This document shows, one piece after another, positions 10,084-56,601 of a stretch of DNA of 64,000 bases. Positions within the stretch are counted from its first letter, which is position 1. Every line of letters starts with the position of its first letter. Below the pieces are notes generated by a model. It had not been told where the DNA came from and ran no database searches. It saw only the letters and a list, made by a program, of their open reading frames with translations. Position numbers and translations under genes: made by a program. The stretch is from Chrysoporthe austroafricana (lineage: Eukaryota > Ascomycota > Sordariomycetes > Diaporthales > Cryphonectriaceae), in NCBI GenBank assembly GCA_001051155.2, contig JYIP02000007.1, positions 1,614,342-1,678,341 of the forward strand, read 5' to 3'.

Positions 10084-10535
10084 TATTATAAATGCTATAG
10101 CAATCCTAAAATATGCTATAAAGTCAAAGGGTTTTATGCTAGCAAGAGCGGTGCCAAGTATAAGCCTTGAGTAAGGGAATACGATTTACCGAATATCGCA
10201 ATATTTATAAATCTTGAGCGACTATTAGTAATAGGGTCTAATTGATATTTAAATTGATAACTGAAGAACTATAGTAATCTATCTGGGGATTATCTTATTC
10301 TTTATATTCCTAGTCCTTCCGTCTTATACTGCTGGATTTGCTAGATCTGGGATAGATTCCTAGATCTGGGATCGGGTAATCTTATAGCAAATCCTTAAAT
10401 CCTCTTTCCTTTATAACCTTAACTCTAGCTTATATAAGTAACGGGAAGGGGTTCCGTAAATGGGGCTATGGGTATAGTATTTGTTTGTCCCTATTCTTGC
10501 CTTAATATACCCTGTTTCTTTGCCGGGTTATAATA
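10084..10535 (-). repeat. 3' LTR of element B
   Basis: 452 bp. Lower end TATTATAAATGC (TGTTATAA... after RIP), upper end GGGTTATAATA. Immediately above it (10536-10555) the minus strand gives a polypurine tract, GATTGGAAAAAGGATAA, the expected plus-strand primer site. Confidence 0.92.
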
Positions 10536-10727
10536 TTATCCTTTTTCCAATCGGTTATTATCTTTAACAATTCCTGTAAATAGCCCTGGTTCGTTTGTAT
10601 GGCTTGTTATGCTTTCCTGAATAGGATAAGTAATAGAATCTCGAAACCCAAATCTTCCAATCTTTATTCTGACAAGCGCAAATAATATAATTCCCTGATT
10701 TTCCGGATTACCCATTACGCTATTATT

Positions 10728-11231
10728 ATGCATCTTTATTCTTATTGCGATTGCTTGGGTTTGGAAACTTGCGCAATATCCAAGCAAGACTTATCTCGTT
10801 ATTTTAAATATATCTAATATAACCAGGCAAGCTGCGATATCCTGGAGCCGACTAACGCTATAGAGCTCTCTTTTGCATCTAACCAGTTTCAGAAACTGGA
10901 AGACAAGATTAAGGGTCTGGAAGACAAATTGATACGATTACGGAAACAGAAACGAATATAGCAAGAGCGAATAGCGCGGGCATTCTGCCGTAACTTGTCT
11001 AACTTCGAGGAATTAGAAAAACTGGAAACCGAAAAGGCAGCAGAAGAGAGTCGCAAAGCCAAGGCCGAGTACCGTATTGCGGAAAACCTAGTTCCTAAAA
11101 GCCTCTTTCCTGAAAGCTTCGATCTGGACGCGATTTTGCAGCAATTTGGCTCGGATACTGACTAGGCTAGTACTAACCTGACTTTGGAATTCGAAACTGC
11201 TTCTGGCCTTTCTAGTCCCTTATCTAGCTAG
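10728..11231 (+). pseudogene. Antisense accessory ORF of element B (Cys motif + coiled coil)
   Basis: A 504-bp frame on the strand opposite to gag-pol, starting 193 bp inside the 3' LTR and read away from it. It has only two premature stops (TAA at codon 30, TAG about codon 78), plus a third TAG near codon 146 where relatives read on. The N-terminus has a Cys cluster (CDCLGLETC, then SRYFKYI and ASCDI; Tyr replaces Cys of related copies). Residues ~50-115 are a heptad-rich coiled coil (FQKLEDKIKGLEDKLIRL; FEELEKLETEKAAEES). The tail carries PKSLFPESFDLD and ILQQFGSD, shared with the other four copies. This is the least damaged copy. Function unknown; the Cys motif suggests a zinc-binding, perhaps nucleic-acid-binding, protein. 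Probably inactive here. Confidence 0.75.
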
Positions 11232-11239
11232 CGGGTTAA

Positions 11240-13972
11240 TTGCTTCTCCTAGTATTCTTTAAATGCTTGCTATGCATTCTTTAAATTGCTAACTGGTTCT
11301 TAGCTATTTTCATTCGAATAATATCTTTTCTATTTAATCAGATATTCTCTATAATCTATTAATTCCCGATATTTAAGGATTCGTTCCATTTCATATTCTA
11401 GTTCGTTATTTTTTGCTTATATTATATTATTTGTTTCGGCTATTTCGGGTATGAGTTTAAAGAGCGAAATATAGAAAACTAAGTAGATTCTTATTCCGTA
11501 AAGTAATGCGAGTTCAAAATTAATATCTGAAATTTTCTTTAAGATTTTGAATAGTCCCAGTTTTTTATAATCCAATAAATAAGAGGGTTTTATTATTTTA
11601 ATATGCTCTTTTTATTATATAAAGTAGATTTTATCCTTTTCTCGTAAGAGCGGTCTTTCGATCCTTTTGGAATTGGCATATTTTATCATTTTTCCTTATA
11701 TAAATTTCAGTTCTTTCTAAAGTTCTTTTTAAACTTTTTTAATCCTTTTGATTCGCTTTTCTGCTACTTCTGCATTTATTCCCGATAATTCGTTATAATA
11801 AGCTATCGGGTTATAGTTATATAGTATATAGAATAATAACTTCTTTATTATATTTATATTTATACTATTATATGCAAATTATATTAAAGGCAATAAATTA
11901 ACCCAATTATCCTATTCGTAATTTATATAATGCTATAAGTATTATTTAATAATTTGGTTCGTTCGTTCTATTTATCCGTCCGTTTATAAGTGGAATGCTA
12001 TAAATATCTTTTGTCGCGTTCCGAATAGCTTTATAAGCGATATCCAGAAATTTGATACGAACTTCTTATCTCTATCGGAAATAATTTCTTTAAGCATACT
12101 ATAATTGGCTATAACTATTCTGAAAAATATATATACGAAATCTTCTACTATACTGCTTTCCTTATATAGAAAGAAATAAGCGTACTTGCTTAATTTGCAA
12201 ACTATTATTAGAATGCTATTGTATTGTACTTTAATTAAGGGTTTTCGTAAGAAAGGTAGTTTAGTAATAAAATCCTAGCTAATAGATTGCTAAACCGTTT
12301 TTAAAATAAGGAATAATTGGAATAATTTATAAGGCTTATAATATTCAATTTTATTCTTCTTATAGCTATTGCATTTTCGTAAGATTTTCTCAATCCTTTT
12401 CTTTAATCCTAAAAAGTTCCAATATCTCTTGATTCTTTTATATATAGCTCTAATCCCTTAATGGCTATAAGCTAGTATACTGTATATGCTTCGGATATAT
12501 TCGTCCTGTTTTTCAGAAATTATATTTTCTGGTTCCTTTTAATCGTTACTAATTCTAATAGCTATATCAAGTTCCCTAATTTCATTTACAAGATTGCCGT
12601 CCTTATCTTGCCAGAAAATATTTTGGAATTCTTTTAGCTTTATACTTTAATAATCCGATTATCTGCTAAATATATCTGCTTTGCCGTTTTCTGATCTTTT
12701 GCAATATACAATTTTTAAATCGAATTATAAAAGGAATTCCGCTTACCTAACTTATTATTTATTCAAGACTTTTGTCGTTATGAATATTGTTAAGTTCTTA
12801 TAATCGGAATGCATTATAATCTGGTATTTTATTCCGATTAAATAGTGCTGCTATTCCTCGAATGCTTTTACAATTGCTATTAATTCCTTATTCGGAATGC
12901 CGTAATTGAGCTCTAAGCTATTCAGTTTTTTCGAAAAGTTACTTACGATCTTAAAGCGTCTTTAATCGTCTCGTTAGCCCAATTGTCTTCCTAATATATA
13001 GTCTAATATATCGGTTTCGATTTCAAATAGCTTATTTAAGTCCGCTTTGCAAAATATAAGCTCTGATATTATTCGTTTTTTAATCTTATTAAACGCTTCC
13101 TATACTTCTTATATCCATTCGAATCTTCGGTTTTTTTTCGTAAGATCTGTAAAGGGTCGTGCGATTTTGCTATAATCCCGAATGAATTGTCGGTAAAAGT
13201 TAGTATAGCCGAAAAATATTCTAACTTCTTTTGTTTTTTCTAATATAAGCTATTCCTTTATTGCTTAGACTTTATTTTTTTGCATGCTAATTTTACTTGG
13301 TTTTATCGTATAACCGAAATAATTAACTTTTTGCTAATGGAAATAATATTTACTTGGTTCGATTAGGAATTTATTATCTTGCAAAATTTAGAATACTTGC
13401 TATATATATTATTTATAAGATTCGAAATCTTTTGAATAGATAAGGATATTATTAAAGTAAACGATAACGGTAATATCCAAGTATTCGCGAAAGATATTAT
13501 TAATTATTTCTTGGAAAGACGCAAGCGCGTTAGTTAATCCAAAAGGTAAGATTATATATTCGAAATATCCATAATATATCCTAAATGCTATTTTCCAAAT
13601 ATCGTCTTCTTTAATTCGGATATAGTAATATCCTTCTTTAAGGTCTAATATAATAAACTAGTTTATTCCGATTAGTCGGTCCTGCATTTCTCTTATTAGG
13701 AATAAAAGATAGCAGTTTTTAATCGTAATATCGTTAAGCTATTTATAATCTATATAAAGTCGTAATTTGCTATTCTTTTTGGGTATAAATAGGATTAAGT
13801 ATTTTGCGAATAATCGTAATTTCCGTATATAGCCTTTCTTTAAGTTTTTATTAATATATTTCCTGAATGCTTCGAGCTTTACTTAATCGAATTTGTAAAT
13901 AGAATAGTTCTTGGGTTTTATCCTTTTCTTTAATAGGATTTCGTAATCAAAAAGGCTATATTCTGGTAAACC
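11240..13972 (-). pseudogene. Element B pol, C-terminal part (RT to chromodomain)
   Basis: Read right to left: RT core near 13660-13400 with the box LDITVIVYFNNILIYSKDF, in which the catalytic YxDD reads YFNN (13445-13459); RNase H near 13100-12700; integrase H2C2 and core near 12450-12000, retaining the conserved ISDRDKKFVSNFW block at about 12040-12090; GPY/F-type C-terminus and a chromodomain-like segment near 11600-11290. Numerous TAA/TAG stops occur. The frame is cut at 13972/13978 by element C and resumes at 21273. Confidence 0.75.
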
Positions 13973-13977
13973 GGTAT

Positions 13978-14396
13978 TGTTATAAACGCTGCAGCAAATC
14001 CTAAGAGATACTATAGGGTTAAAGGGTTTATGCTAACAAGAGCAGTACCAAGTACGGCCTTGAATCTCAAGACGGTTTACGGGTATTTCGCAATATTTAT
14101 AAGCCAATAGGGCTATCAATAATAGGGTATAATTGATATTTAGATTAATAATTGAAAATTATATACTAAGTTTACTTACCGCGAACAAGTACGTTCTTAT
14201 ATACTTAGCTTTTCAATTTTGGATCGATAGGACCGTAACCGATCCTTTCGGTCCAGGGTAATATCGATAGGACTATCGATAGTCCTATCAGTCCTAACTC
14301 TAACCTTAAATTATATAACCTGCTTATATACGGTTTCTATTAGGATATTAATTCCTTAGTTCCTATTATATTATATATATTGGATAAGTTATAATA
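13978..14396 (-). repeat. 3' LTR of element C
   Basis: 419 bp; lower end TGTTATAAACGC is unmutated. It contains a perfect 24-bp palindrome at 14266-14289 centred on ATCGAT and, just above it, CCTAACTCTAACC next to a TATATAA box. Confidence 0.93.
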
Positions 14397-14412
14397 TTAT
14401 CCTTTCTCTATA
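14397..14412 (-). other. Polypurine tract of element C
   Basis: On the minus strand, TATAGAGAAAGGATAA directly precedes the 3' LTR, as expected for the plus-strand primer of reverse transcription. Equivalent tracts adjoin the 3' LTRs of A, B, D and F. Confidence 0.65.
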
Positions 14413-14577
14413 GATCGTTATCTTTTAATGATCTTTCGTAAATCTCTCTTATCCTTTCCCTGTTCCTATTATCGTATTTTCCTAATCGAGATATCGAATA
14501 AAGTTTCCAAGTCTTATTTTAAAAAAACCGAATAGTCTTTTTCTCTCTAGTTTTCAGTTTTCTATCAGGGTATTATT

Positions 14578-15099
14578 ATGCTTGCTTGTTTGTCTTGTAA
14601 GGACCGGAAAGTCCTATATATGGCTTCTGAAAAAGATTCTTCCCGTTATACCGAATGCGTTCGTTCCAAGAAAGGGGGTTGCGATATACGTAACTTGATT
14701 CCAGTACAGATATGCAAGATTACTTTATAGCATTCCAAAATAGAAACCGAGCTAGATTATACCGAAAAAAAGGCAATAGCCGCTAATACCAAAGTATAGC
14801 GCTTGCAGTTACAATATTATTTGTAAGCTTTTAAGATAGCACGTACCGTATGCTAGAATTTCGATATTATTAAGGAATTGGAACGTATTAAAGCTGAAAA
14901 AGCCGAGGAAGAGCGCTATAGGGCTGCGGCAGAATGCCGGAATGTAAAATCCCTAATTCCCGAAAGTCTTTTTCCCGAAAGTTTCGATTTGGATATCGTT
15001 CCGCAGCAATTCGGTTCTAACTTTGATTAGCCAGTATTGGATCGGGAATTTGATTTCCTAAGAATAGCCGGTCTTTCTGGCATTTCCCGTCTCTCTTAG
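14578..15099 (+). pseudogene. Antisense accessory ORF of element C (Cys motif + coiled coil)
   Basis: 522-bp frame opposite to gag-pol, starting 182 bp inside the 3' LTR. Residues 4-36 show C-x2-C, then Y-x2-C-x7-CD (MLACLSCKDRK at the start; SSRYTECVRSKKGGCDI later), a zinc-finger-like pattern in which Tyr24 is probably a RIP-altered Cys. A charged helical region follows (IKELERIKAEKAEEERYRAA), then PESLFPESFDLD and QQFGS. Five internal stops are all TAG/TAA. It has the same length as the copy in D. Function unknown; I infer a nucleic-acid-binding or regulatory accessory protein. Confidence 0.78.
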
Positions 15100-15180
15100 A
15101 TTTAATATGTAATTTCTTTATATTCCTTTTTGTTATTATTTGTTTAAATAGTCTGCTAATATTCGGGATATATTTTGTAA

Positions 15181-18100
15181 ATTAGTCTTTGGTTTTTACG
15201 AATTTTCGTTTGCTAGATAGCCTTTCCATTTGATAAAATATTCGGAATTGTAATTTGGTTTGTAATATTTGAGAATTCGTTCGATTTCGTATTTTGGTTC
15301 GTTATTTTCGATCTGGATAATTTTATTTATATTAATTGATTTGAATGCTAGTTCGAAAAGCGAAATATAGAATACTGAGTAGATTCTTATTTTATAGAAT
15401 AATATAAATTCGAAATTGATATTTGAAATTTTCTTTAGAATTTTGAATAGTCCTAGTTTTTTATAATCCAATAAGTAAAAGGGTCTCGTTATTCTGATAT
15501 ATTCTTTTTGTCGAATAAAATAAATTTTATCCTTTTCCTATAAGATTGGTTTTTTAATCCTTTTAGAATTGGCATATTTCGTTATTCTTTTTTATACGAA
15601 TTTCAATTCTTTCTGGAATTCTTTTTGAATTTTCTTAATCTTTCTAATTCGTTTTTCTGCAATTTCTATATTTATTCCTAATATTTTATCGTAATAGGTT
15701 ATCGGGTTATAACCGTAAAATGCATAAAATAGTAATTTTTTCGTTATATTTATATTCGCGCTATTATATGCAAATTATACTAAAAATAGGAAATTAATTT
15801 AATTATCTTATTCGTAATTTACGTAATATTATAAATATTGCTTAATAACCTAATTAGTCTTTTCTATTTATCTATCTGTTTATAAGTAGAATGCTATAAA
15901 TATTTTTTATTATATTCCGAATAACTTTGTAAATAAAGTCTAGAAATTTGATACGAACTTTCTATTTCTATCAGAAATGATTTCTCTAGGCATACTATAA
16001 TTAGCTATAACCGTTCTCAGAAATATATATACGAGGTCTTCTGCTATACTGCTTTCTTTATAAAAGAAAAAATAAGCGTACTTGCTTAATTTGCAAATTA
16101 TTATTAAAATGCTATTATATTGCATTTTAATTAAAGGTTTTCGTAAAAGGGATAGCTTAATAATGAAATCCTAGCTAATAGATTGCCAAACCGTTATCGG
16201 GATAAGGAATAATTGAAATAATCTATAAAGCTTATAATATTCGATTTTATTTTTCTTGCAGTTATTGCATTCTCGTAAGATATTTTCAATTCTTTATTTA
16301 AATCTTAATAAATTTTAATATCTCTTAATCCTTTCGTAAATAGCTTTAATTCCTTAATAGCCGTATGCAAATATATTATGCGTAATCCTAATATATTCGT
16401 TTTGTTCCCTAATAATTATATTTTCTAGCTTCTTTTATTTATTATTAATTCTAATAATTATATTAAGCTCTTTTATTTCGTTTATAAGGCTGCTATTTTT
16501 GTCTTGCTTAAAAATATTCTGTAATTCTTTAGATTCTATATTTTAATAATCTGCTCGTTTGCTAAATATATTTGCTTTGCCGTTTTCTAATCCTTTGCAA
16601 TATACGATTTTTAAATCGAATTATAAGAAGAATTCTGCCTATTTAATTTATTATTTATTTAGGACTTTTATTATTATAAATATTATTAGGTTTTTATAAT
16701 TTAAATATATTATTATCTGATATTTTATTCCGATTAAATAGTATTGCTATTTCTCGAATGCTTTTATAATTGCTATAAGCTTTTTATTTAAAATGCTATA
16801 ATTAATTTCTGGACCGTTTAATTTTTTTGAGAAATTGCTTATGATCCTGAAATATCCTTAATTATCTCGTTAGCTTAATTATCCGCTAAATACGTAATCC
16901 GATATATCAGTTTCAATTTCAAATAGTTTATTTGGGTTTGTTTTGCAAAATATAAGTTCTAATATAACTCGTTTTTTAATCTTATCGAATGCCTCTTGCG
17001 CTTCTTTAATCTATTCAAATTTGTAATCCTTTTTTATAAGATTTATAAATAGTCGTACAATTTTGCTATAATTTCGAATAAATTGTCGATAGAAATTGGC
17101 ATAGCCGAAAAATGCTCTAATTTCCTTAGTTTTTTCTAGTACTAGCTATTCTTTTACTGCTTGAACCTTATCTTTCTGCATATTAATTCGTCCTAATTCG
17201 ATAATATAGCTTAAATAATCGACTTTCTATTAATAGAACTAGCATTTAATTAATTTTATAAAGAATTTATTATTTTGTAATATCTAGAATATTTGCTATA
17301 TATATTATTTATGCATTATAAAATCTTTTGAATAAATAAGGATATTATCAAAATAGATAATAACGATAATATCCAGGTATTCGCAAAAGATATTATTAAT
17401 CATTTCTTGGAAAGATACGAATATATTAATCAATCCAAAGGGTAAAATTACGTATTCAAAATATCCGTAACGAGTTCGGAAAGCTATTTTCCAGATATTA
17501 TCTTCCCTGATCCGAATATAATAATATCCTTCTTTAAGATCCAAAATGGTAAACTATTTTGTTCCTATTAATCGGTCTCGCATTTCTCCTATTAGCGGTA
17601 AAGGATACTGATTCTTGATTGTAATATTATTAAGCTATCGATAATTTATGCAAAGTTGTAATTTGCTATTCTTCTTTAGAATAAATAGGATTGGATATTC
17701 TGTTAATAATCGTAATTTCCGTATATAACCTTTTTTGAGATTTTCCTTAATATATTCTTTGAATGCCTTGAGTTTTGCTTGGTTAAGCTTATAAATAGAG
17801 TAATTTTATAACTTTGCCTTTTTTTTTAATAGGATCTCGTAATCGAAAAGGCTATGCTCTAATAAGCCGTTATCGAATTTCTTTTGCTATAATTTCTTGA
17901 ATTCGTAATATTCTTGCAGTACGTTTTTGAAATCTGGTAATAGTCTTTCCTTGTTTTCTGCGATTTGTAAGAATATAAAGTATTATTATGCATATCTTGC
18001 CTTGCCAGCTTCTTGTTTCTAAAGCTTTCTTGCTTCTAGTAATCTCGGGTATTTGCTAAGTACTGAGCCGAATTGTTTTTTGGCATATTCGTATTATGGA

Positions 18101-18900
18101 AGCTATATTTCCTTATAGTTTTATAATCCATATTTCTTTATATTGTTTCGTACTTAATTAAATTTCTGTTAATCGATAATTATTTATAGTTTTAATTCAT
18201 TTCTAACTTTTATTTAGGGGTTTAAAGTATTCGTAACCTTTCTTTATATTATAGCTTGCTTTTCTGCCTTAAGAATATTTACGAGCTTATTTAAGCGCAT
18301 TTCTCTTATGCTATCCTTAATAATTAAATCTTTTCTTTTACTAATAATTGCAACCTTTTTAGTAAGTACGGCTTATTCCTATAAAATCTGGCTAGTAGTT
18401 CAATCGATTCGAAAGTTATGCTTTTTAAGCTAAGGTATTTTTAAAATTAATTTATACTATACCGTATCTGTAATATCAAAAATGATATTTATCGTAAAGC
18501 TTTGGATCGAAATAAGTAAGTAATTAATTTCTATATCGATTATACTTAAGTTATACGCAATCGGTTTTCCTTTTATAGTATTGAACTTATAAGGACTTTT
18601 TTTCTATATCCAGGGAATTCGTTCCTTATTAACGACTTCTAGCGAAATGAAATTTCTTTGCATATTATTATCCATTAATGCGCTATATTGTTATCTTTTA
18701 ATATATATATCCAGAATAATATGTTTTTCGTTTTCCTTAATAATAGCATATAAGGATTTCGTAATCCTGATCGGCTATTATCCCGTTATAAGCGATCTTT
18801 CCCTTTTGGGGTTTTCTGAGCATTTCTTGCTGCTTATTATGCTAGCTTTTTTGCTTAAGTATAGCTTCGCTGCCGATTCTTCTCGATTTTCTGCAGCCTA
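15181..18900 (-). pseudogene. Element C pol (RT, RNase H, integrase, chromodomain)
   Basis: Right to left: near 17880-17560 the RT N-terminal part; 17544-17305 the RT core starting MDLKEGYYYIRI, with ILPFGLIN and a YFDN box at 17341-17355 replacing YxDD; 17100-16550 RNase H (ETDISDYV, NYSILNKKLIAIIKAFEK); 16400-16230 an H2C2-like zinc site (ECNNCKKNK); 16125-15940 integrase core (SKYAYFF ... IISDRNRKF); 15471-15196 the integrase C-terminus (LGLFKILKKIS ... FYISLFELAF) fused to a chromodomain (EYFIKWKGYLANE). Chromodomain integrases direct insertion to heterochromatin in this class. The protease probably lies near 18300-18800 but I could not fix its DTG. Many stops; catalytic Asp lost. Confidence 0.8.
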
Positions 18901-19799
18901 TGCCATTCTTTAGCTTTATTTTATGCATATATAGAATATGCTATTATATAGCATTATCCTTATATAGTTTTCCTATCGATATATATTCGTAGGCAATTAT
19001 CGAATAGCCTTATATATGCGTTATTATTTTCGATATATAGGACTTTTCTATATCTTCCTTTTTTTTCCGTAATAGGATAGATCAATTAATCTTATTCCTT
19101 AAATGGAAACCAATCGTATTTAACTTTCTCGCTGAAATATATCTAGCAATTATAATAAATATAATTAATCCAAGCAAATTCGTAATAATAAGGGTATAAA
19201 TAATTAATCTTTCTGTCTTCTTAGGGTAAATATTCGCTATTTTGAAATGGTATGCTTTGGAAGAATTCTTTTATTATAAGCTTATAAATAATATATTCCA
19301 TTTCTATATATTTGGATATTTATTTGCTGCAATCCTAGCAATCTTTTTGCTAGTAATAAGCTATTTCCTTTAATAGTTCTTTATCGAGAATTGGAATTAG
19401 TAAGTTATCTAGCTATCTATTAAGGTATATCGATTCCTTGATAATATTACTGGGTATCAGTAACTTGGTTTGTATAATGCCGATTTCTTCTTTTACTATA
19501 TTGCTCTATTATCGTTCTAAATAGTAATTCAAAAGGTATTTTCTTAAATCTTTTTCGTTTTGTAAAAATCTCTCGCTAGAATAGTCGGAATTACTATTCT
19601 AGATAACTATATCGTAAAGTAAGCCTTTTCTGCCCATAACGAGCTATTATTATCCCTAAGGCTTATATAGAAATTATCCCGAACTTTTTTTTGCCGAGAA
19701 ATGCAATATGCAATAATTTTAATAGCAAGCTATCCAGCTAAAGCTGCTATAATCAGAATCCGCTATTTGTTCCGGTTAGATATTTTTGTCTAGCTAATT

Positions 19800-20848: not shown

Positions 20849-21267
20849 TATTATGAATGCTATAGCAAATCTTAAGAGATATTATAGGGTTAAAGGGTTT
20901 ATGCTAACAAAAGCGGTATTAAGTATAGCTTTGAATCCTAGGACGGTTTACGGGTATTTCGCAATATTTATAAGCCAATAGGGCTATTAATAGTAGGGTA
21001 TAATTGATATTTAGATTAACGATTGAAAATTATATATTAGGTTTATTTATTGCGAACGAGTACGTCCTTATATACTTAGCTTTTCAGTCTTGGATCGATA
21101 GGATTATAGCCGATCCTTTCGGTCTAGAGTAATATCGATAGGACTATCGACAGTCCTATTAGTCCTAACCCTAACCCTAGATTATATAACCTGCTTATAT
21201 ACGGTTTCTATTGGGATATTGGTTCCCTAGTTCCCATTATGTTACGCGTATTGGATAGGTTATAATA
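20849..21267 (-). repeat. 5' LTR of element C
   Basis: 419 bp, lower end TATTATGAATGC, upper end TTATAATA followed by TSD GGTAT. Contains CCTAACCCTAACCCTAG (21164-21180) just above a TATATAA box. Confidence 0.93.
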
Positions 21268-21272
21268 GGTAT

Positions 21273-24710: not shown

Positions 24711-24715
24711 GGATA

Positions 24716-25036
24716 GCCTTTCAATAATAAGAACTAACCTTTTGTAACTATTTAGATAATAGCGAAGATTTCCGTTCTGAAAATACCAAGCGCATTTTTT
24801 AACGCTATATTAATTTCGAATTAGCTCTTATAAAGATTTTCGGAAATTCGGACAAACGACGCATTGTAATACGGCAGCTAAAAGCATTATAGCAAATTAG
24901 CTTGGCCGCAAACTATATAGCCAAATTCCGATAGATTATCGCTTATTTGGATTATGAAAACGAACCTTTTATAAATGCTTATTATACGGAATTTAAAAAA
25001 GAAATTAAGAACAAACTCTATAAGGAAAACCGATTC
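24716..25036 (+). pseudogene. Element A gag, second segment
   Basis: Resumes gag of A after element B: frames include SENTKRIF, FELALIKIFGN and KRRIVIRQLK, then YIAKFRQIIAYLDYENEPF (a conserved gag stretch also seen in F near 47000-47060), and ends at the insertion of D. 25032-25036 (GATTC) is the TSD. Interrupted by RIP stops. Confidence 0.7.
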
Positions 25037-25455
25037 TATTATAAACGCTGCAGCAAATCCTAAAAGATACTATAAAGTTAAAGGGTTTATGCTAATAAGA
25101 GCAGTACCAAATACGGCCTTAAGTCCTAAAACGGTTTACGGGTATTTCGCAATATTTATAAGCTAATAAGGCTATCAATAGTAAAGTATAATTAATATTT
25201 AGATTGACAATTGAAAACTATATATTAGGTTTACTTATTGCGAACGAATACATTCTTATATATTTAGCTTTTCAGTCTTGAATCGATAAGACCGTAACCG
25301 ATCCTTTCGGTTTAGGGTAATATCGATAGGACTATTAATAATCCTGTTAGTCTTAACCCTAATTCTAAATTATATAACTTGCTTATATACGGTTTCTATT
25401 AGGATATTAGTTCCCTGGTTCCTATTATATTACGCGTATTGGATAGGTTATAATA
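25037..25455 (-). repeat. 3' LTR of element D
   Basis: 419 bp; lower end TATTATAAACGCTGC, upper end GGTTATAATA, adjoining the polypurine tract TTACAGAAAAAGGATAA read on the minus strand. Confidence 0.92.
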
Positions 25456-25636
25456 TTATCCTTTTTCTGTAAATCGTTATCTTTTAACGATCTTTCGTAA
25501 GTCTTTCTTATCCCCCCTTTGTTCCTGTTATCGTACTTTCTTAATCGAGATATCGAATAAGGTTTCCAAGTCTTATTCCAAGAAGACCGAATAGTTTCTT
25601 TTTTTCTGGTTTTCAGTTTTCTGTCAGAATATCGTT

Positions 25637-26158
25637 ATGCCTGCTTATTCGTTTTATAAAGACCGGAAAATCTTATATATAGCTTTTAAAGAAGATTCTT
25701 CCTATTATGCCGAATGCGTTCATTCTAAGAAAGGGAATTGCGATATATATAGCTTGATTCCGGTATAAATACGCAAAATTACCTTGCAGCATTCTAAAAT
25801 AGAAACCAAGCTAAATCGTACCGAAAAAGAAGCAATAGCCGCTAATGCCAAAATGCAATGCTTGCGGTTGCAACGTTATTTATAAATTTCTAAAATAATA
25901 CGTACTGTATGCCGGGATTTCGATACTATTGAGGAATTGGAACGTATTAAAGCTGAAAAAGCCGAGGAAGAGCGCTATAGGGCTGCGGCAAAATGCCGGA
26001 ACGTAAAATCCTTAATTCCCGAAAGTCCTCTTCCCGAAAATTTCGATTTGAATATCGTTCTGTAGCAATTCGGTTCCGACTTTAACTAGCCGGTATTAGA
26101 TTAGGAATTTGATTTCCCAGGAATAGCCAGTCTTTCTAGCACTTTCTATCCTTTTTAA
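25637..26158 (+). pseudogene. Antisense accessory ORF of element D
   Basis: 522 bp, 182 bp inside the 3' LTR: identical length and position to the copy in C. The N-terminal Cys residues are more eroded (MPAYSFYKDRK: both Cys of the first pair are Tyr) but AECVHSKKGNCDI is kept, as are ELERIKAEKAEEERYRAAA and PESPLPENFDL. Stops are TAA/TAG. C-to-Y changes match G-to-A RIP on TGT/TGC codons. Clearly a decayed homologue; function unknown. Confidence 0.72.
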
Positions 26159-26199
26159 ATTTAATATATAATTTCTTTATATTCTTTTTTATTATTATT

Positions 26200-32327: not shown

Positions 32328-32332
32328 GATTC

Positions 32333-36960: not shown

Positions 36961-37189
36961 ATAATCGAAAATAATATTTAAATTTTTCGAGCCAAGAAAA
37001 TAAAACTATCGGTAAACGAAAATATATTTTATATTAAATATTCTATATAATTATCCAATTAGTTATAGAATTTTCTTAAAATCGATATATAGAAAAGAGA
37101 AATCTTAGAATATAATATTCCTATATTTATAATTAAGCCTTATTATAATAGCAGCTATACGTATATAAGAGCTGCAGCTAGAATATACC

Positions 37190-44469: not shown

Positions 44470-44474
44470 AATAA

Positions 44475-45928: not shown

Positions 45929-46421
45929 TATTATAACCTATCAAAAGAGCAGGGTATGCAAGAAAAGGAATAAGAACGGGCAAGCACGCACGATTATAAC
46001 TCTACTCATTATTTGTACTAGCTAGGATTAAGCTTATATAATAGGATTTGAGGATCTGTACTAGAGCTATTAAATCCAGGATTTAGAGATCTGTATTAGA
46101 GCTACTAGATCTAGGATCTAGGGATCTGCGCCAGAGCTATTAGATCCAGGATTTGGGGATTGGCTATAAATCTAGCAAATCAAATACTGAAAAGCTGGAT
46201 ATATAAAAACGGAATATCTATTAAACAGATTATTATAACTTTTCAATTATCAATTTAAGTATTAATTGGATCTTATTATTAATAGCTAATTTCGGCTTAT
46301 AAATATTGCGAACGATAAGAATGAATTAGTTTTAAAGCTTAAGGCTATATTTGATACCGTTCTTGCTAATATAAACCTTTTGATTTTACAGGAATTTTAA
46401 GATTATAATAGCATTTATAAT
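45929..46421 (+). repeat. 5' LTR of element F
   Basis: 493 bp. Longer than the other type I LTRs because of an internal 35-bp tandem repeat. The GGATATATAAAAACGG box resembles the TATA region of A. Confidence 0.9.
46045..46149 (+). repeat. 35-bp tandem repeat in the LTR of F
   Basis: Three 35-bp units (46045-46079, 46080-46114, 46115-46149) with the core AGAGCTATTAGATCCAG and GGATCTG. The 3' LTR carries the same three units at 52963-52997, 52998-53032 and 53033-53067. A single GATCTGTTCCAG-like unit stands here in A. Confidence 0.85.
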
Positions 46422-47400
46422 ATTTTAATAATTCTTATTCAAGAACGGTTTAATATATTTCCTTTTAAGCAATATTAAGAATATAATAGCGCTTTAAATT
46501 CTGTTTTCTTTTAGCAATTAAGCTTTTCAGGAAGGAAACCCGGTTATTTTTATTAATGAATAATTCCAGGAATAAAATATAGCTTTATACTAATAGTTTA
46601 AAGAAATTAAAAACGAAATTTTCTGCTTTAATACCTTTTAATAGGCTAAAGCTTTCAAACTTAATAAACCCGGGCCTTATAAAAATACTTGCAAGGACTT
46701 TTAAGCCTTCTTAATCCAATTCAAAGCCTATTTCAAATATTATAATATTTAATTCAGGACTATTTACGATAAAATCGATTTCGTAAGAAACCGATTCGAA
46801 AAAATAGCATTTTAGTAATAAAAGCCTATTTTTCGCGATTATTTGGATAATAATAATATATTCCGTTCCGAAAATACTAAACGCATTTTTTAGTATTATT
46901 TCAATTTCGAAAAGGCCCTTATTAAGACTTTCGGAAATCCGGACGAATAGCGCATTGCAATACGGTAATTGGAAGCATTTCGGCAAACAGGATTAGCAGC
47001 GAATTATACGGCTAAATTCAGATAAATTATTGCTTATTTCGATTACGAAAACGAGCCCTTTATAAACGCTTATTATATAAGATTTAAAGAAGAAATCAAA
47101 AACGAATTTTATAAAGAAAACCGACCCGAAAAATTCAGTAAATTCATTAATAAGGCCGTTCGTATCGATAATCGGCTTTACGAATAAAAGCAATAATAAT
47201 AAAAAAATTATAATAATACTTTTTAGTACTAACCCAATTTTAGAAAGCGCAAATTCCAATATAGTAATTCAAATAATATAGCTTATTCGGGCATAATATA
47301 TGCCGAACTTATAGAATTAAACGCTTTTATATAAGAATACTGTAAGGGAATTATTTATTACAATTGCGGCAAGAAAGGCTATATTGCCCGTAATTGCTAT
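46422..47400 (+). pseudogene. Element F gag with leader and CCHC knuckle
   Basis: Leader TTTTAATAATTCTTATTCAA abuts the LTR. Gag follows with FQAKAFKLNKPG, KDFQAFLIQFKAYFKYY and DKIDFVRNRFEK near 46640-46800, then CIFQYYFNFEKALIKTFGN and IAYFDYENEPF near 46880-47065. The knuckle at 47356-47397 reads YYNCGKKGYIARNC, with the first Cys and the His turned to Tyr. Gln codons appear as TAA/TAG. The minus-strand frames at 46711-47259 are shadows that recur in the other elements. Confidence 0.78.
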
Positions 47401-47999
47401 TAAAAGAAAAAGAAATGAGAATGGAAGCTAATTTTAGAAAGATAGGCAAATATTGCTTAATAATAGGAACCCAATTAGCTAAATAATAATATTCTATTAG
47501 AATAAGTAGCGAATTCTGATTACGGTAGCATAAGCTGGATAGCTTGCTATTAGGATTATTGCTTATTGCATTTCTCGGCAAAGGAAAATTCAGAATAATT
47601 CTTACGCAAATTTAAAAGATAAAAGCAGCTCGCTATAAGAAAAAGAGGCTTATTCTATAATACGGCTATAAATAATAGCGATTCGGATTGCTTAAGCAAT
47701 TTGCTAGATATTAAGGAAGAAAATTAAGGAAAATTCTTCTTAGAAATATATTTCGATTAGCGGTAAGAAAAGGCAATAGAAGAAGAATTTAGTATATAAG
47801 CGCTAATACTTAGCGCTATATTCGATAAAATAATATTATAAAATAAATAGCCAAATAATTTGCTAACCCAAATATTCGAAAAAGAATCTATCGAAAAAAT
47901 AAGAAGATTAATTATTTAATATATTAAATCGAATTATTCTAAAAACCGTAATTGGATAATTAAGCATACGAAAATAAAATATTTTATATATAGACTTAC

Positions 48000-50900
48000 T
48001 CTAGAAGAATTCTTTCAAAGCATCCCGTTTTAGAATAGCAAATGCGAACTTTAAGAAAATAGAAAGATCAGTTATTTATATTCTCATTATTATAAACTTG
48101 CTTGGATATATTGCGTATATTATAATTGCCAAATATATTTTAGCGAGAAAATCAAATATAATTAGTTTCCAATTAGAAAATGGAATTAATTAGTCTAATC
48201 TATTATAAAAACCCAGGAGAAATACAGAAAGGTCTTGTATATTGAATGCAATAATGCTTATATTGGATTACTTAATAATTATCTATAAAAGTATATTTAA
48301 GAAAGAACGATATAAGAATAATACTATATATCGGCATATTCTATTTATATGCAAGATAAAGTTAAAGAATAATACCGATTATAAAAAGCCGAGAAAATAA
48401 AATAGTACGCTTAAAGTCAAACAAGAAAATTAGCAAAGCAAGCAGCAAGAGAAGCTTAGAATACTCTAAAAGGGAAAGATTGCTTATAACGGGATAATAG
48501 CTAATCAGGATTACGAAATCCCTATACGCGATTATAAAGGGAAACGAGAAGCATATTATATTAAATGCATATATTAATAGGTAACGATACGGCATATTTT
48601 TGGATAGCAGCATATAAGGAAATTTTATTTCGCTAGAAATCGTTAATAAAGAATAGATTTTTTGGATATAAAAAAAAAATCCTTATAAACTTAATATTAT
48701 AAAAAGAAAAGCGATTATATATAACTTTAATATAATTAATATAGAAACTAATTATTTATTTATTTTAATTTAAGACTTTATAATAAAAACTATTTTCGAT
48801 ATTATAAATACGGCATAGCATAAATTAATCTTAAGAATACTTTAGCTTAAAGAATATAATTTTTAAATCGATTAAATTATTAGCTAAATTTTATAGGAAT
48901 AAGCCGTATTTATTGAAAAGGTTGCAATTAATAGAGAAAGGAAAGACTTAATTATTAAAAATAGTATCAGGAATATATATTCAAATAAGCTTAGATATAT
49001 CCTTAAAGCAAAAAGATTTGCCGGAATAAAAGGAAAAGTTACGAATATTTCGAACTTATAAATACGGATTAAAAGCGAATTAAGAATTCAAACGATTAGC
49101 AATTAGCAAAAAGCTGATATAGCGCAAAGCGTTATAAAAAAATATAGATTATAGAATTATAAAGAAATTTAGCTTCCAATACGAAAAGACTATAAAAAGG
49201 AATTTGGGCCAATAAACGATAAATACCCGAAATTATTAGTAATTAAGCCTCGAAAATAACGATAGGAAGCAAGCGAAACAAAATACGCTTAACAATACTT
49301 TTTATTCTTCCAAATTTCAAAAAATAAAGAAAAACCGCTATTAGAACTTAAGAACGTACTTAAAGAATATTATAGGTTCAAGAAGCTATAACAAAAGAAA
49401 TTCAATACCGGTTTACTAGAATATAGCCCTTTTAATTACGAAATTCTATTAAAAGAAAGAACGAAATTAAAGAATTACCCAATTTACAAGCTCGACTAAG
49501 CAAAGCTCGAAACATTTAGAGAATATATTAACGAAAACCTGAAAAAAGGTTATATACGGAAATTATAATTATTTGCAGAATATTCAATTCTATTTGTATT
49601 AAAGAAAAACGGCAAATTACGACTTTATATAAATTATAAATAGCTTAACGATATTATAATTAAGAATCGCTATTCCTTCCCCTTAATAAGAGAAATGCGA
49701 AATTGCTTAATTGGAACAAATTAGTTTATTATGCTCGACCTTAAGGAAAAATATTATTATATCCGAATTAAGGAAAATAATATTTGAAAAACGGTATTCA
49801 AGATTCGTTACGGATATTTCGAATACGTAATTTTACTTTTTAAACTAATTAATGCATTTGTATTTTTCTAAGAAATAATTAATAATATTTTCCGCAAATA
49901 TTTAAATATTATTATTATTATTTATTTCAATAATATCTTTATTTATTCAAAAAATTTTAAATTATATAAATAATATATATAACAAATATTTTAAACTTTA
50001 TAAAATAATAAGTTTTTAATTGAATTAAGCAAATATTATTTCTATTAGCAAAAAATCAATTATTTCGGTTATATAATAAAACTAAGCAAAATCAATATAT
50101 AAAAAAATAAAATCCAGGTAATAAAAGAATAGCTTATGCTAGAAAAAACTAAAGAAGTTAAAATATTCTTTAGCTATATTAACTTTTATTAATAGTTTAT
50201 TCGAAATTATAGCAAGATCGTACGTTTTCTTACGAACCTTACGAAAAAAGACTAAAGATTCGAATGGACTTAAAAAGCGCAAAAAGCATTCGACGAAATC
50301 AAAAAACGGGTAATATCAGAACCTATATTTTATAAAATAAACTCAAATAGACTATTTAAAATCGAAACCGATATATCAGATTATATATTAGGAAAATAGC
50401 TCGGTTAACGAAACAATTAAAGATATTTTAAGGTTATAAGCAACTTTTCGAAAAAGCTAAATAGCTCGGAATTCAATTATAGCATCCCGGATAAAGAATT
50501 AATAGCAATTGTAAAAGCATTCGAAAAATAGCAGTATTATTTGATCGGAATAAAATACTAAATTATAATATATTCCGACTATAAGAACTTAATAATATTT
50601 ATAATAATGAAAATCCTGAATAAACGATAAGTTAGATAAGCGGAATTCCTTTCGCAATTTAACTTAAAAATCGTTTATTGCAAAGGATTAGAAAACGGCA
50701 AAGCAAATATACTTAGCAAACAGTCAGACTATCAGAATATAAAACTAAAAGAATTGCAAAATATCTTTTAATAAAATAAAAATAGCAATTTTATAAATAA
50801 AATTAGAAAACTTAATACGATTATTAAGCTCTTTAATAATAGGAAAAAACTAGAAAATATAATAATTAAAAAATAAAACGAATATATTAAAAATATATAT

Positions 50901-52149
50901 AGCGTATTCGCATACGGCTATTAAGGAATTAAAGCTATTTATAAAAGAATTAAGAGGCATTAGAATTTTCCAGGCTTTAAAAGAAGGATTAAAAATATTT
51001 TACGAAAATATAATAGCTGCAAAAGGAACAAAATTAAGCATTATAAGCCTTATAAGCTATTCTAATTGCTTCTTATCCTAAAAGCAATTTGGCAATTTAT
51101 TAGCTAGAACTTTATTATTAAGCTATTTCTCTTACGAAAACTTTTAATTAAAATGCAATACGATAATATCTTAATAATAGTTTGCAAATTAAGCAAATAT
51201 GCTTATTTCTTTCTATATAAAGAAAGCAATATAGCAAAAGATTTCGTATATATATTCTTGAGAATAATTATAGCTAATTATAATATGCTTAAGGAAATTA
51301 TTTCCGATAAAAATAGAAAGTTCGTATTAAATTTCTAAATTTTATTTACGAAATTGCTCGGAATATAACAAAAAAATTTATAATATTTTATTTATAAATA
51401 AATAAATAAATAGAATAAACGAATCAAATTATCAAATAATACTTATAATATTATATAAATTACGAATAAAATAATTGAATTAATTTGCTATTATTAGCAT
51501 AATTCGCTTATAATAGCGAAAATACGAATATAATAAGGAAATTATTATTTTATGCATTCTATAAATATAACCCGATAGCCTATTATAATAAGTTATTAAG
51601 AGCAAATGCAGAAGTAATAAAGAAATGAATTAGAAAAATCAAAAAAGTTTAAAAAGAATTTCAGAAAGAACTGAAATTTGTATAAAAGAAAATAACAAAA
51701 TATGCTAATTCTAAAAAGATTAAAAGACTAATTTTATAAGAAAAGAATAAAATTTATTTTATTCGATAGAAAGAATATATCAAAACGATAAAACTTTCTT
51801 ACTTGCTAGATTATAAAAAATTAGGACTATTCAAAATCCTAAGGAAAATCTCAAATATCAATTTCGAATTAGTATTACTTTATAAAATAAGAATCTACCC
51901 AATATTCTATATCTCGCTTTTCGAACTTGCATTCAATATAGCTAAGATAAACGAATTTATACAAATCGAAACTAACGAACCGGAATACGAAATCGAATGA
52001 ATTTTCTATTACCGAAAACCGACTTAATACAGAAAATACTTAATCAAATAGAAAAAGTATTATTCGAACGAAAATAGCTAGAAACCGGTTAATAATTTAA
52101 ATAATATATAGCAAGCATTTAAGAATTATTAGAAAAGGCAATTAATTAG
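48000..52149 (+). pseudogene. Element F pol
   Basis: Linker near 48000-49400; RT from about 49420 (ILLKERTKLKNYPIYKL), core 49730-49990 with MLDLKEKYYYIRI and the catalytic box YFNNI at 49923-49937 in place of YxDD; RNase H near 50270-50760 (ETDISDYILGK, ELIAIVKAFEK); integrase H2C2 region near 51000, core 51153-51338 (SKYAYFFLYKES ... IISDKNRKF); C-terminus 51803-52000 (LGLFKILRKIS ... FYISLFELAF ... EPEYEIE) leading into a chromodomain to about 52130, where the Trp of KWKGY is a stop. All interruptions are TAA/TAG/TGA. Confidence 0.78.
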
Positions 52150-52653
52150 CTAGCCCGAAAGATAATCCGAAAAACCCAGTATAATTTCATATCTTATAGA
52201 CAAATCAATAATAAATCAATTAATATTAAGACTAAATTATTACAAAATTGTATCCAGGTTAAAAATTTCGGGAAAAGGATTTTCGGGAATTAAGATCTCT
52301 AGAACGCAACGCTCAATTTCGGCTTTACGGCATTCTTCTTCCGCCTTTTCAGCCTCTAGCTTCTCTAACTTTTCGAGATTAAATAAGCTATAACAAAATG
52401 CCTTAGCTATCTGTTCCCGCTATATCCGTTTTTATTTTCGCAATCGCATTAGCTTATTTTCCAAACCCTTAATTTTATTTTCTAGTTTCTGAAATTAATT
52501 AGATGCGAACGAAAATTCCATAGCATTAATCGGTTCTAAAATATCGCAACTCGCTTAATTATACTAAACGCACTTAAAATAACGAGATAAGTTTTGCTTA
52601 GATATTGCGCAAGTTTTTAATCCCAAGCAATTGCAATAAGAACAAAGACGTAT
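52150..52653 (-). pseudogene. Antisense accessory ORF of element F
   Basis: Exactly 504 bp on the strand opposite to pol, beginning 194 bp inside the 3' LTR with ATA in place of ATG (52653). It has the best preserved Cys cluster of its subfamily: CSYCNCLGLKTC, then SRYFKCV and ASCDI. FQKLENKIKGLENKL and LEKLEKLEAEKAEEE form the coiled coil, and PENPFPEIFNLD the tail. About ten stops, nearly all TAA/TAG. Same length and position as in B and A. Confidence 0.75.
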
Positions 52654-52846
52654 AATAATAGCGTAATAAATAATCCGAAAAATTAAAGAATTACGTTATT
52701 TGCGTTTATTAAAATAAAAATTGCTAGATTTAAGTTTCGAAATTCTATTACTTATCTTATTTAAGAAAGTATAATAGGTTATATAAATAAGCTAAGAATT
52801 ATTTACAGGAATTGTTAAGGATAATAATTGATTGGAAAAGGGATAA

Positions 52847-53340
52847 TATTATAACTTATTAAAAGAATAAAGTATGCAAAAAAAAGAATAAGAACGGATA
52901 AGCATATACGATTACAGCTTTACTTATTACTTATACTAGTTAGGATTAAGCTTATATAATAAGATCTAAAGATTTATATTAGAGCTATTAGATCCAGGAT
53001 TTGAGGATTTGCGCTAAAGCTACTAGATCCAGGATTTGGGGATTTGTGCTAGAGCTACTAGATTCAGGATTTGGAAATCGGCTATAGATCCAGCAAATCA
53101 AATACTAAAAAGCTGGATATATAAGAACGGAATATCTATTAAACAGATTATTATAACTTTTCAGTTATTAATCTAAATATCAATTGGATCCTATTATTAA
53201 TAGCTAATTTCGGTTTATAAATATTGCGAACGATAAGAGTAAATTAGTTCTAAAGCTTAAAACTATATTTAATACCGTTTTTGTTAATATAAACCCTTTA
53301 ATTTTGCAAGAATCTTAGGATTATAGCAGCATTTATAATA
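52847..53340 (+). repeat. 3' LTR of element F
   Basis: 494 bp, preceded by the polypurine tract GGAAAAGGGATAA and followed by the TSD-like ATTTT. Contains three 35-bp units at 52963-53067. Confidence 0.9.
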
Positions 53341-53345
53341 ATTTT

Positions 53346-55904
53346 ATTCGTATTAAAAAAGAATAGCAAATTATAATTTTGTATAAATTATTAATAGCTT
53401 AACGATATTACGATTAAGAATCGCTATTTTTTATTGCTAATAGGAAAAATGCAAAATCGGTTAATAAGAACGAATTAGTTTATTATATTCGATTTCAAAA
53501 AAAGATATTATTATATCTGAATTAAGGAAAACGATATTTGGAAAATAACATTTAAGATCCGTTACGAATATTTTAAATATATAATCTTATTTTTTAGACT
53601 AATTAATACGTTCGCATTTTTCCAAGAAATAATTAATAATGTCTTTTGCAAATATTTGGATATTATTATTATCGTTTATTTTAACAATATCCTTATTTAT
53701 TTAAAAGATTTTGAATTATATAAATAATATATATAATAAGTATTTTAAATTTTATAAAATAATAAGTTTTTAATTAAATTAAGTAAATGCTATTTCTATT
53801 AATAAAAAGTTAATTATTTCGGTTATATAATAGAATTTAGCAAAATTAATATATAGAAAAATAAAATTTAAATAATAAAAGAATAGCTTATACCGGAAAA
53901 AATTAAAGAAATTAGAATATTTCCCGGTTATATTAATTTTTATTAATAATTCATATGAAATTATAGCAAAATCGCATGCCCTTTTACGGATCTTACGAAA
54001 AAAAATTAAAAATTCGAATAAATATAAAAAGTATAAAAAGCATTTAACAAAATTAAAAAACAAATAATATTAGAACTTATATTTTGCGAAATAAACCCAA
54101 ATAAGCTATTTGAAATCGAAACCGATATATCGGATTACGTATTTGGAAAATAGCTTAATTAAAAGGACGATTAAGAACGCTTTAAGATTATAAGTAATTT
54201 TTCAAAAAAATTAAACGGCCCGGAATTCAATTATAGCATTCCAGATAAAGAATTAATAGCAATTATAAAAGTATTTGAGAAATAATAATATTATTTAATC
54301 GGAATCAAATATTAGATTATAATGCATTCTGATTATAAGAATTTAATAATATTTATAATAATAAAAGTTTTAAATAAATAATAAGTTAAATAAGCAGAAT
54401 TCTTTTTATAATTCGATTTAAAAATTGTTTATTGCAAAAGATTTAAAAATAGCAAAGCAAACGTATTTAGCAAACAATTAGATTATTAGGATATAGAATT
54501 TAGAAAATTCTAAAATATTTTCCGATAAGATAAGAATAGCAATTTTGTAAATAAAGCTAAGGAATTTAATACGATTATTAAAATTTCCAATAATGAAAAG
54601 AAACTAAAAAATATAATTATAGAAAAATAGAACGAATATATTAGAAATATATATAATGCATTTGCATACGGCTATTAAAGAATCAGAATTATATATAAAA
54701 GAATTAAGAAATATTGGAATTTTTTAAAATTAAGAAAAAAGATTGAAATAATCTTATAAGAATGCGATAATTGCAAGAAAAACAAAATTGAATATTATAA
54801 GCCTTATAAATTGCTTTAACTGCTTTTTATTCCGGAAGCAATTTAGCAATTTATTAGCTAGGATTTTATTATTAAGCTATTTTTTTTACGAAAACCCTTA
54901 ATTAAAATACAATACGATAGCATTTTAATAATAGTTTGCAAATTAAGTAAATATGCTTATTTTATCTTTTATAAAGAAAGCAATACGGCAAAAGATTTTA
55001 TATATATATTCTTAAGGATAATTATATCTAATTATAGCATATTTAAAGAAATTATTTCCGATAAAAATAGAAAGTTTGCATTCAATTTCTAAATTTTACT
55101 TATAAAATTATTCGGAATATAGCAAAAAATATTTATAATATTCTATTTATAAACGGATAAATAAACGGAATAAATTAATTAAATTATTAAACAATACTTA
55201 TAATATTATATAAATTATAAATAAAATAATTAGGTTAACTTGCTATTATTAATACAATTCGCATATAATAGCGCAAATATAAGCATAATAAAGAAATTAT
55301 TATTTTATATACTTTATAGCTATAATCCGATAGCCTATTATAACAAATTACTAGGAATAAATGCAAAAATAGCAGAAAAACGAATCCGGAAAATTAAGAA
55401 AGCTTAAAAAGAATTTCAGAAAGAATTGAAATTTATATAAGAGAAAATAACAAAATATGCCAATTCCAAAAAGATTAAAAGACCAATCCTATAGGAAAAG
55501 GATAAAGTTTATCTTATTCAATAAAAGGAATATATCAGAATAATAAGACCCTTTTACTTATTAGATTATAAGAAATTTAGCCTATTCAGGATTTTAAAGA
55601 AAATCTCGGATATAAATTTTGAATTTGCATTACTTTACGGAATAAAAATCTATCCGATATTCTATATTTCGCTTCTCGAATTAATATTTAGCGCAATTAA
55701 AGCAAACGAATTTATATAAATTGAAATTAATAAACTAGAATACGAAATCGAACGAATCCTTAAATATCGAAAATTAATTAAATATAAAAAATACCTGATT
55801 AAATGGAAAGAGTATTATTCGAATAAAAATAGCTAGGAATCGGTTAATAACCTGAATAATATATAGCGAGCATTCGAAAATTACTGGAAAAGATAATTAA
55901 TTTG
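53346..55904 (+). pseudogene. Element A pol, RT core to chromodomain
   Basis: Resumes in RT with LFVLKKNSK and NDITIKNRYFLLLIGKMQNRLI; the catalytic box reads VYFNNILIY at 53677-53691 (YxDD lost). RNase H near 54080-54470 (ETDISDYVFGK), integrase core near 54930-55100 (SKYAYFIFYKESNTAKDF ... IISDKNRKF), C-terminus near 55560-55740, chromodomain near 55740-55890 with KWKEYYSNKNS. Stops throughout. Pol of A ends where the antisense ORF tail begins. Confidence 0.75.
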
Positions 55905-56408
55905 CTAGTTAGAAAAAGTTTTAAAAAAACTCAAGATAGCCCTAAGCTTTATAATCAAATTAATACTAGCCCAATCGATATCAGAACCAAATTATTATAA
56001 AATAGCATTCAGATTAAAACTTTCGGGAAAGGGATTTTCGGGAATTAAAGCCTTTGCAATACGATATTCAATTTCGGCCTTGCAATACTTTTCTGCCGCC
56101 TTTTCAGCCTTTAACTTTTCTAACTTTTTAAAATTAAATAAGCTATAACGGAATGCTTTAGCTATTCGCTCTCGCTATATCCGTTTCTATTTCTGCAACC
56201 GTATTAGCTTATTTTCCAAACCTTTAATTTCGTTTTCTAGCTTCTAAAACTAATTAAATGCGAAAGAAAGTTTCGCAATATTAATCGGTTCCAGAATATC
56301 GCAATTCGATTAGTTATATTGAATATATTTAAAGTAACGAGACAAATTCTGTTTGGATATTGCATAAATCTTTAGCTTTAAACAGTCGCAATAAGAATAA
56401 GAGCGCAT
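55905..56408 (-). pseudogene. Antisense accessory ORF of element A
   Basis: 504 bp, ATG at 56408 preserved, 194 bp inside the 3' LTR, read toward pol. The N-terminus shows YCDCLKLKIYAISKQ, SRYFKYIQ and SNCDI (Cys partly Tyr); helical region with KLENEIKGLENKLIRLQK; tail LIPENPFPESFNL, then FGSDID. Nine stop codons before the final TAG, all TAA/TAG. Same length as in B and F although each copy has decayed separately. Confidence 0.75.
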
Positions 56409-56601
56409 AATAATAGCGTAATAAATAATCCGAAAAATTAAGGAATCGCATTATTTGTTTTTGTTAGAACGAAAATTAGAAAATTTAAGTTTTGAGATCT
56501 TGCTACTTATCTTGATTAAGAAGGCACGATAGGCTACCCGAATGAATTAGAGTTACTTACGGAAAATTGTTAAAAATAATAACTAATTAGAAAAGGGATA
56601 A

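Follow-up and report, generated by a model that had tools for sequence, protein, structure and literature searches.

Antisense genes of Chrysoporthe retrotransposons: a candidate Zn2Cys6-like regulator co-exchanged with an array in the long terminal repeat

A 64,000-nucleotide stretch of the Chrysoporthe austroafricana genome (contig JYIP02000007.1, positions 1,614,342 to 1,678,341; this whole stretch is called the window below) holds five copies, elements A, B, C, D and F, of a gypsy-type chromodomain retrotransposon that carries an additional gene on the strand opposite gag-pol. Here, we report that this antisense frame is real and protein-coding, that the gene is under selection, that its N-terminal module (N-module) has been shuffled between element lineages, and that this module and an array of short repeated sites in the long terminal repeat (LTR) have been co-exchanged. 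The best explanation of the whole, which we hold to be likely from comparisons of sequences, is a self-encoded Zn2Cys6-like regulator of the element's own LTR, with the array as its candidate binding site.

Coding evidence for the antisense gene

The original prediction, made from the letters of the window alone, placed antisense frames of 504 bp (B, F and A) and 522 bp (C and D) in the five elements. We found them there, and beyond the 3' end of each one the other strand carries a piece of a chromodomain. The predicted extent held for the 3' part, which makes up the last 167–173 codons of a gene of 201–202 codons, and failed for the start, which had been set at an internal codon (position 10728 in B). 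The true start lies 29–34 codons further upstream and gives a gene of 606 or 609 bp. The start codon is ATA in all five window copies, aligned with the ATG starts of other copies, and all five are broken by 4–9 internal stops each.

10626..11231, plus strand: putative antisense regulator gene of element B, start at 10626; 201 codons plus stop, broken
14491..15099, plus strand: the same gene in element C, start at 14491; 202 codons plus stop, broken
25550..26158, plus strand: the same gene in element D, start at 25550; 202 codons plus stop, broken
52150..52755, minus strand: the same gene in element F, start at 52755; 201 codons plus stop, broken
55905..56510, minus strand: the same gene in element A, start at 56510; 201 codons plus stop, broken

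The frame is not limited to these elements: 150 places were scored among 413–414 candidates in this genome. Loci were sampled by the antisense gene itself, and the counts cover gene-bearing places. The analyses below draw on 46 loci (40 other element copies, the solitary homolog L027 and the five window copies) or on the 45 copies that are left without L027. The start codon is ATA in 37 of the 46 frames and ATG in nine. In 29 of the element copies, the frame opens with ATG, or with ATA in the corresponding position, and closes with a stop at codon 195–200; a few codons repeatedly carry internal stops. We also noted an element copy, L019 (G000:C8:88761-89180), whose antisense frame has no internal stop and has ATA where the start codon is expected.

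In this genome, an SH3-chromodomain piece lies beyond the 3' end of the gene, on the opposite strand, at 44 of the 46 loci (the exceptions are L027 and L032). The arrangement termed aORF-3R, in which an antisense gene lies between pol and 3' LTR, was thus found at 44 of the 46 loci, with the LTR pair delimited for B and D. The minus strand of element C carries reverse transcriptase, RNase H and integrase pieces as well as the chromodomain. The gene starts ~40 nt (B) or ~95 nt (D) past the inner end of the LTR.

15142..15291, minus strand: chromodomain (PF00385, by Pfam) at the end of pol of element C, 42 nt from the stop of the antisense frame
10081..10584, no strand: 3' LTR of B, paired with 24256-24763 (82.9%); ends set by alignment
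25020..25455, no strand: 3' LTR of D, paired with 31893-32327 (85.8%); ends set by alignment

The repeat blocks of the window have a GC content of 0.24–0.29, compared with 0.49 in its first 9 kb, and look affected by repeat-induced point mutation (RIP). The original prediction had described the damage as stops arising from Gln and Trp codons and as Cys-to-Tyr changes, and the 46 rows agree with it: 144 of 209 internal stops fall in columns with a Gln or Trp majority, and every non-Cys residue in the six motif Cys columns is Tyr, which is the damage expected of RIP. Since RIP produces transitions only, we estimated dN/dS (omega) from transversions alone. Pairs were drawn from 45 copies and do not overlap within a distance bin; the three bins hold 18, 16 and 19 pairs, and a copy can recur in another bin.

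In frame 0, omega was 0.119 for close, 0.120 for middle and 0.217 for far pairs. Frames +1, +2 and -3 gave 1.3–5.8 and frame -1 gave 0.58–1.76; frame -2, which shares its third codon position with frame 0, gave 0.16–0.29. Close pairs have 0.0415 transversions per site in the 300 nt upstream (pairs less than 60% alike upstream were left out) compared with 0.0152, 0.0093 and 0.027 at the three codon positions. By segment, omega in close and middle pairs was 0.08 and 0.03 for the Zn region, 0.08 and 0.05 for the coil and core, 0.07 and 0.12 for the leader, and 0.21 and 0.33 for the tail.

These values bear on the idea that the frame is a non-coding by-product, or that an antisense RNA rather than a protein regulates the element through double-stranded RNA. 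Antisense transposon RNAs do exist in fungi, according to a passage of PMC10648671. However, an omega of 0.12–0.22 in frame 0, set against values above 1 in frames +1, +2 and -3, and intact homologs in many fungi leave this idea with hardly any probability. A non-coding chance frame is ruled out by the transversion omega and the non-coding form is refuted; the RNA may have a role in addition.

Exchange of the N-terminal module and the LTR array

Classes (B, C, M, M1, M3, M4, K and S) were drawn by the analyst from the N-modules. Among 6632 protein pairs, which are not independent of each other, 63 combine a tail identity of 85% or more with an N-module identity of 60% or less, and the reverse holds for 10. 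In this genome, the median transversion distance between B and M4 is 0.021 in pol and 0.245 in the N-module, and that between K and S is 0.014 and 0.201. Conversely, M1 and K are 0.015 apart in the N-module and 0.165 in pol, and members of S 0.009 and 0.166. In purine/pyrimidine trees of 44 copies, many inner branches of which are weak (3/30 and 6/35 starred), L047 and L053 have identical N-modules and fall in different pol clades. The pol data reject an S clade (approximately unbiased (AU) test, p-AU 2.4e-70), and the N-module data reject a clade of L019, L036 and L045 (p-AU 1.4e-50). For L019, L036, L045 and L047 together, the AU test of the N-module data gave p 0.40, with mutually identical rows on both sides. 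Element lineages have exchanged the N-terminal module with one another.

The LTRs hold class-specific arrays of sites, and for F the array was seen in both LTRs.

10341..10403, no strand: class B half-site array (CCAGATCC type), 3' LTR of B, by motif hits
14225..14369, no strand: class C array (CGATAGGA type), 3' LTR of C, by motif hits
25284..25428, no strand: class C array, 3' LTR of D, by motif hits
52962..53074, no strand: class B array, 3' LTR of F, with a 35-bp tandem repeat at 52980-53074
56733..56803, no strand: class B array, 3' LTR of A, by motif hits, with one more hit near 56880
46043..46160, no strand: 35-bp tandem array, 5' LTR of F, by tandem repeat

The class motifs are the analyst's picks, and their mean RIP-tolerant counts in 420 nt across 45 copies were as follows: class B motif CCAGATCC, 5.3 versus at most 0.6 in other classes; class C motif CGATAGGA, 5.0 versus 1.0 elsewhere; class M motif GGCTTACC, 5.7 versus 2.6; class M4 motif GGATTACC, 5.0 versus 2.5; and class S motif GAATCGCC, 3.3 versus 0.7. 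When class labels of the 45 copies were permuted within pol strata and motifs rediscovered each time, the observed sum was reached in 1 of 2000 permutations. In most copies the sites are concentrated between about -320 and -230 relative to the gene start, with some outside, and spacings of 8–9 or 17 bp are frequent. Copy L030 has inverted repeats such as GCTTACC-A-GGTAAGC.

We compared the K class, as reference, with S and M1 along the element (2 K, 2 S and 8 M1 copies, purine/pyrimidine code). The LTRs of K and S are alike except for one block of ~80 bp. K–S identity is 0.93–1.0 except at -320 to -240 (0.75) and over the gene from 0 to 560 (0.62–0.91). The K form of the block occurs in the LTRs of M1, which have another backbone, and the N-module of K comes from the same lineage: K–M1 identity is 0.93–0.97 in the array and 0.91–1.0 from +40 to +480 of the gene. 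Because the 240 nt between array and gene keep a K–S identity of 0.93–1.0, array and module are two separate pieces that match one source. The likeness of L053 to S covers the block and the part following it and does not extend to the far LTR. Collectively, N-module and LTR array are co-exchanged. A statement that the module does not follow the LTR, drawn from whole-LTR distances, was overturned by the array island in the window-by-window comparison.

Linkage alone would offer another account, in which crossovers near pol move the neighbouring LTR and N-module together, host factors use the arrays, which evolve quickly, and the protein has another role such as particle or chromatin binding. 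B and M4 differ mainly from -280 to +400, being partly alike at -120 to -40 (pol 0.92–1.0), and C and M3 mainly from -320 to +400 and again from +520 to +600 (pol 0.91–1.0). In both comparisons array and module thus form one nearly continuous differing stretch, which linkage alone could explain. Further, the case with two islands consists of two K and two S copies, to which L053 adds a partial third, and the K tail at +520 matches neither S nor M1 (0.60 and 0.66). What speaks against linkage as the whole account is the conserved 240 nt between two differing islands in K and S, together with the match of K to M1 in both the array and the gene. We regard linkage alone as quite improbable.

A predicted regulator of the element's own LTR

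A dimeric Zn2Cys6-like protein acting on the LTR array would account for coding, exchange and array alike. The original prediction had proposed a retrotransposon-encoded, possibly zinc-binding regulator, and we sharpen this to a protein with a predicted Zn2Cys6-like DNA-binding domain and a coiled coil, whose LTR arrays match its class. Zn2Cys6 domains have the spacing C-x2-C-x6-C-x5,12-C-x2-C-x6,9-C and usually a basic first loop. Foldseek, given the model of the Cys domain of family member P0092 alone, returned 27 hits, 25 of them chains of GAL4, HAP1, PUT3, LEU3 and their kin and two from CBF3/kinetochore proteins. As in those factors (PF00172), a six-Cys domain would be followed by a long helix, which the full model places at residues 79–129 with high pLDDT. 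The antisense protein differs from them in that most members have x7, the Pfam cut-off is not reached, a large regulatory domain is lacking and a retrotransposon carries the gene. A PDB sequence search with the Cys domain found GAL4, LEU3, LAC9 and a CBF3 subunit at weak scores (E 0.14–5.5). Among 122 proteins, 20 fit the Zn2Cys6 six-Cys spacing. Net charge is below zero in 95 of 97 tails cut out of the 122 proteins by pattern.

Several observations weigh against this assignment and against the regulator as a whole. No Foldseek hit of the P0092 domain model reaches E 0.001, and P0092 and many of the 22 domains searched with PF00172 were picked for greatest likeness to Zn2Cys6. PF00172 matched 20 of these 22 chosen Cys domains, which favours the assignment, with a best E of 0.0024 that falls short of the cut-off; P0092, about the best, scored 18.3 bits (E 0.0025) where 21 is required, and 14.9 bits at full length. 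On whole proteins PF00172 matched 4 of 23 members (best E 0.41), and 4 of 10 members with x6 spacing (best 0.03). The second spacing is x7 instead of x6 in 87 of 122 proteins, none of the 122 fits the strict PROSITE-type pattern, and most members are without a basic first loop. Because the PF00172 cut-off was not reached, we file the family as Zn2Cys6-like only. In this genome, 43 of 46 rows have Tyr in place of the fourth motif Cys, a position that is probably prone to RIP; the Cys persists in L002 (class B), L045 (class S) and L027, as it does in most intact homologs. One acidic stretch of the tail appears unconstrained (omega 1.03, 0.51–3.49, middle pairs). As to the arrays, motifs were found on the same copies on which they were scored, with classes that the analyst had drawn from N-modules, and TATA-like words flank the array on both sides in only 12 of 45 copies (left in 22, right in 18).

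Other candidates were set aside. The full-length model gave a single, meaningless Foldseek hit (E 6), VIA matched along helices only, and TAL-effector proteins (the 23 top rows of the PDB sequence search with the Cys domain) gave 10-residue matches that we took as spurious. Searched as whole proteins against Pfam and NCBIfam, members obtained weak names only, DUF465 in 8 of 23 (best 9e-6).

In the proposed mechanism, reading of the gene would begin at the 3' LTR and proceed inward, opposite to gag-pol, presumably by transcription from the LTR. Its product, a self-regulator of ~200 residues, would comprise the Zn2Cys6-like DNA-binding domain, a linker, a dimerising coiled coil and the acidic tail. 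The dimer would bind the LTR array, roughly -320 to -230 relative to the gene start, whose half-sites are often inverted. Because both LTRs carry the array, it could act on its own gene through the 3' LTR and on gag-pol through the 5' LTR. Binding module and array would together form a specificity cassette that recombines between lineages and creates separate regulatory groups.

The output is probably that of a positive autoregulatory activator or an anti-silencer, and we prefer this direction over repression because the tail is acidic. A silencing antagonist, as the original prediction had suggested, is one of several possible outputs. The same protein and site could instead act in repression, for copy-number or superinfection control, as a phage repressor does with its operators, and such control would likewise favour the swapping of cassettes. 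Phage immunity regions exchange repressor and operators together; module and array are likewise swapped together here, and several module classes coexist in one genome. Acidic tails are more usual in activators, which is a weak argument against a repressor. We consider repression unlikely.

Precedents and relatives

The original prediction stated that no fungal antisense gene of this kind had been described. This was mistaken: Boty-like elements of Botrytis and Sclerotinia, also gypsy-type chromodomain elements, have the antisense gene brtn in the interval from pol to the 3' LTR (Zhao et al., 2011, as cited in parts of PMC7264820, PMC8365987, PMC4227169 and PMC5987419). For brtn, the passages concerned describe neither a DNA-binding domain nor an operator in the LTR, and the likeness seen is one of position. 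Plant aORF-3R genes, namely TRP28 of Retand (PMC11963269) and gene23 of Grande and the gene of RIRE2 (PMC7264820), are likewise antisense between pol and 3' LTR, kept across copies and suspected to be nuclear or DNA-binding. They belong to plant elements, Retand to a non-chromovirus lineage, and the cited passages describe neither cognate LTR arrays nor module swapping. TRP28 is reportedly confined to flowering plants (PMC11963269), and the function of antisense LTR-retrotransposon genes is called undetermined in the part of the review PMC7264820 that treats them. Among the top-ranked open-licence papers, none reported a fungal retrotransposon-encoded Zn2Cys6-like gene or cognate LTR arrays.

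By analogy, VANC and foamy virus Tas are the closest functional models. Tas is encoded by a retroelement and, according to PMC4929722, binds two promoters, one of them that of the LTR; it is a different, retroviral protein, and comparable action in the Chrysoporthe element would be a prediction. VANC proteins of Arabidopsis VANDAL transposons are sequence-specific and transposon-encoded, and their targets are often tandem repeats that vary between related transposons (PMC5735166, in part). Repeats that co-vary with protein type were also found here, by co-segregation. VANC are anti-silencing proteins of plant transposons of another type, whereas the Chrysoporthe gene is antisense in an LTR retrotransposon, Zn2Cys6-like and subject to cassette exchange by recombination. 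HBZ of human T-cell leukaemia virus type 1 (HTLV-1) is likewise an antisense nuclear regulator in a retroelement (PMC11963269, in part); it is retroviral, and the comparison does not imply related proteins.

The five window translations matched one protein, the intact L027 protein 32, and a profile of 23 intact homologs 209. The profile search yields a family of at least 209 fungal or metagenome proteins. Among the matches listed (120 of 209), 12 genera are named: Pyricularia, Colletotrichum, Gaeumannomyces, Cytospora, Hirsutella, Cordyceps, Beauveria, Fusarium, Metarhizium, Monosporascus, Chaetomium and Microdochium. Three of the named fungi were confirmed as Sordariomycetes by look-up, and the remaining genera presumably belong there too. 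Homologs in named fungi are annotated as hypothetical or uncharacterised proteins, and some in metagenomes carry automatic names (seryl-tRNA synthetase, EnvC, DUF465 family). A search of virus contigs showed no relative, and Rfam gave no match at gathering score.

If the regulator exists as proposed, antisense genes of LTR retrotransposons gain a concrete, testable role, that of a self-encoded sequence-specific regulator with identifiable operators, and a role is assigned to the family. LTR retrotransposons could then be seen to possess a transcription-factor/operator circuit whose specificity is exchangeable as a module. More broadly, fungal LTR retrotransposons may be split into specificity groups, comparable to the immunity groups of phages, each with a self-encoded Gal4-type factor and a cognate operator array, the cassette being swapped between backbones; we see the chances of this as evenly balanced. 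Such swapping would let elements escape or share control by host silencing, by rivals or by their own copy-number feedback. A binding motif is predicted for each class, and the idea can hence be checked in vitro.

The solitary homolog L027 (G000:C12:3390462-3391115; L039 4660-5319, minus strand) is an intact, un-RIPed, GC-rich homolog of 218 amino acids in surroundings of ordinary GC content. At E up to 1, the surrounding 10 kb showed no match to reverse transcriptase, RNase H, integrase or chromodomain, and no LTR-like repeats were found. L027 may be a domesticated element copy, or else a long-established host gene. Tandem TGGCTGGGC-type repeats lie ~1 kb upstream of it (L039 6259-6676).

Within the window, the 5' LTR of element A was not found. 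Insertions are nested: C lies inside B (10081-24763) and F appears nested inside A (45929-57000). The GC-rich part of the window has 17-bp tandem repeats at 8461-8699.

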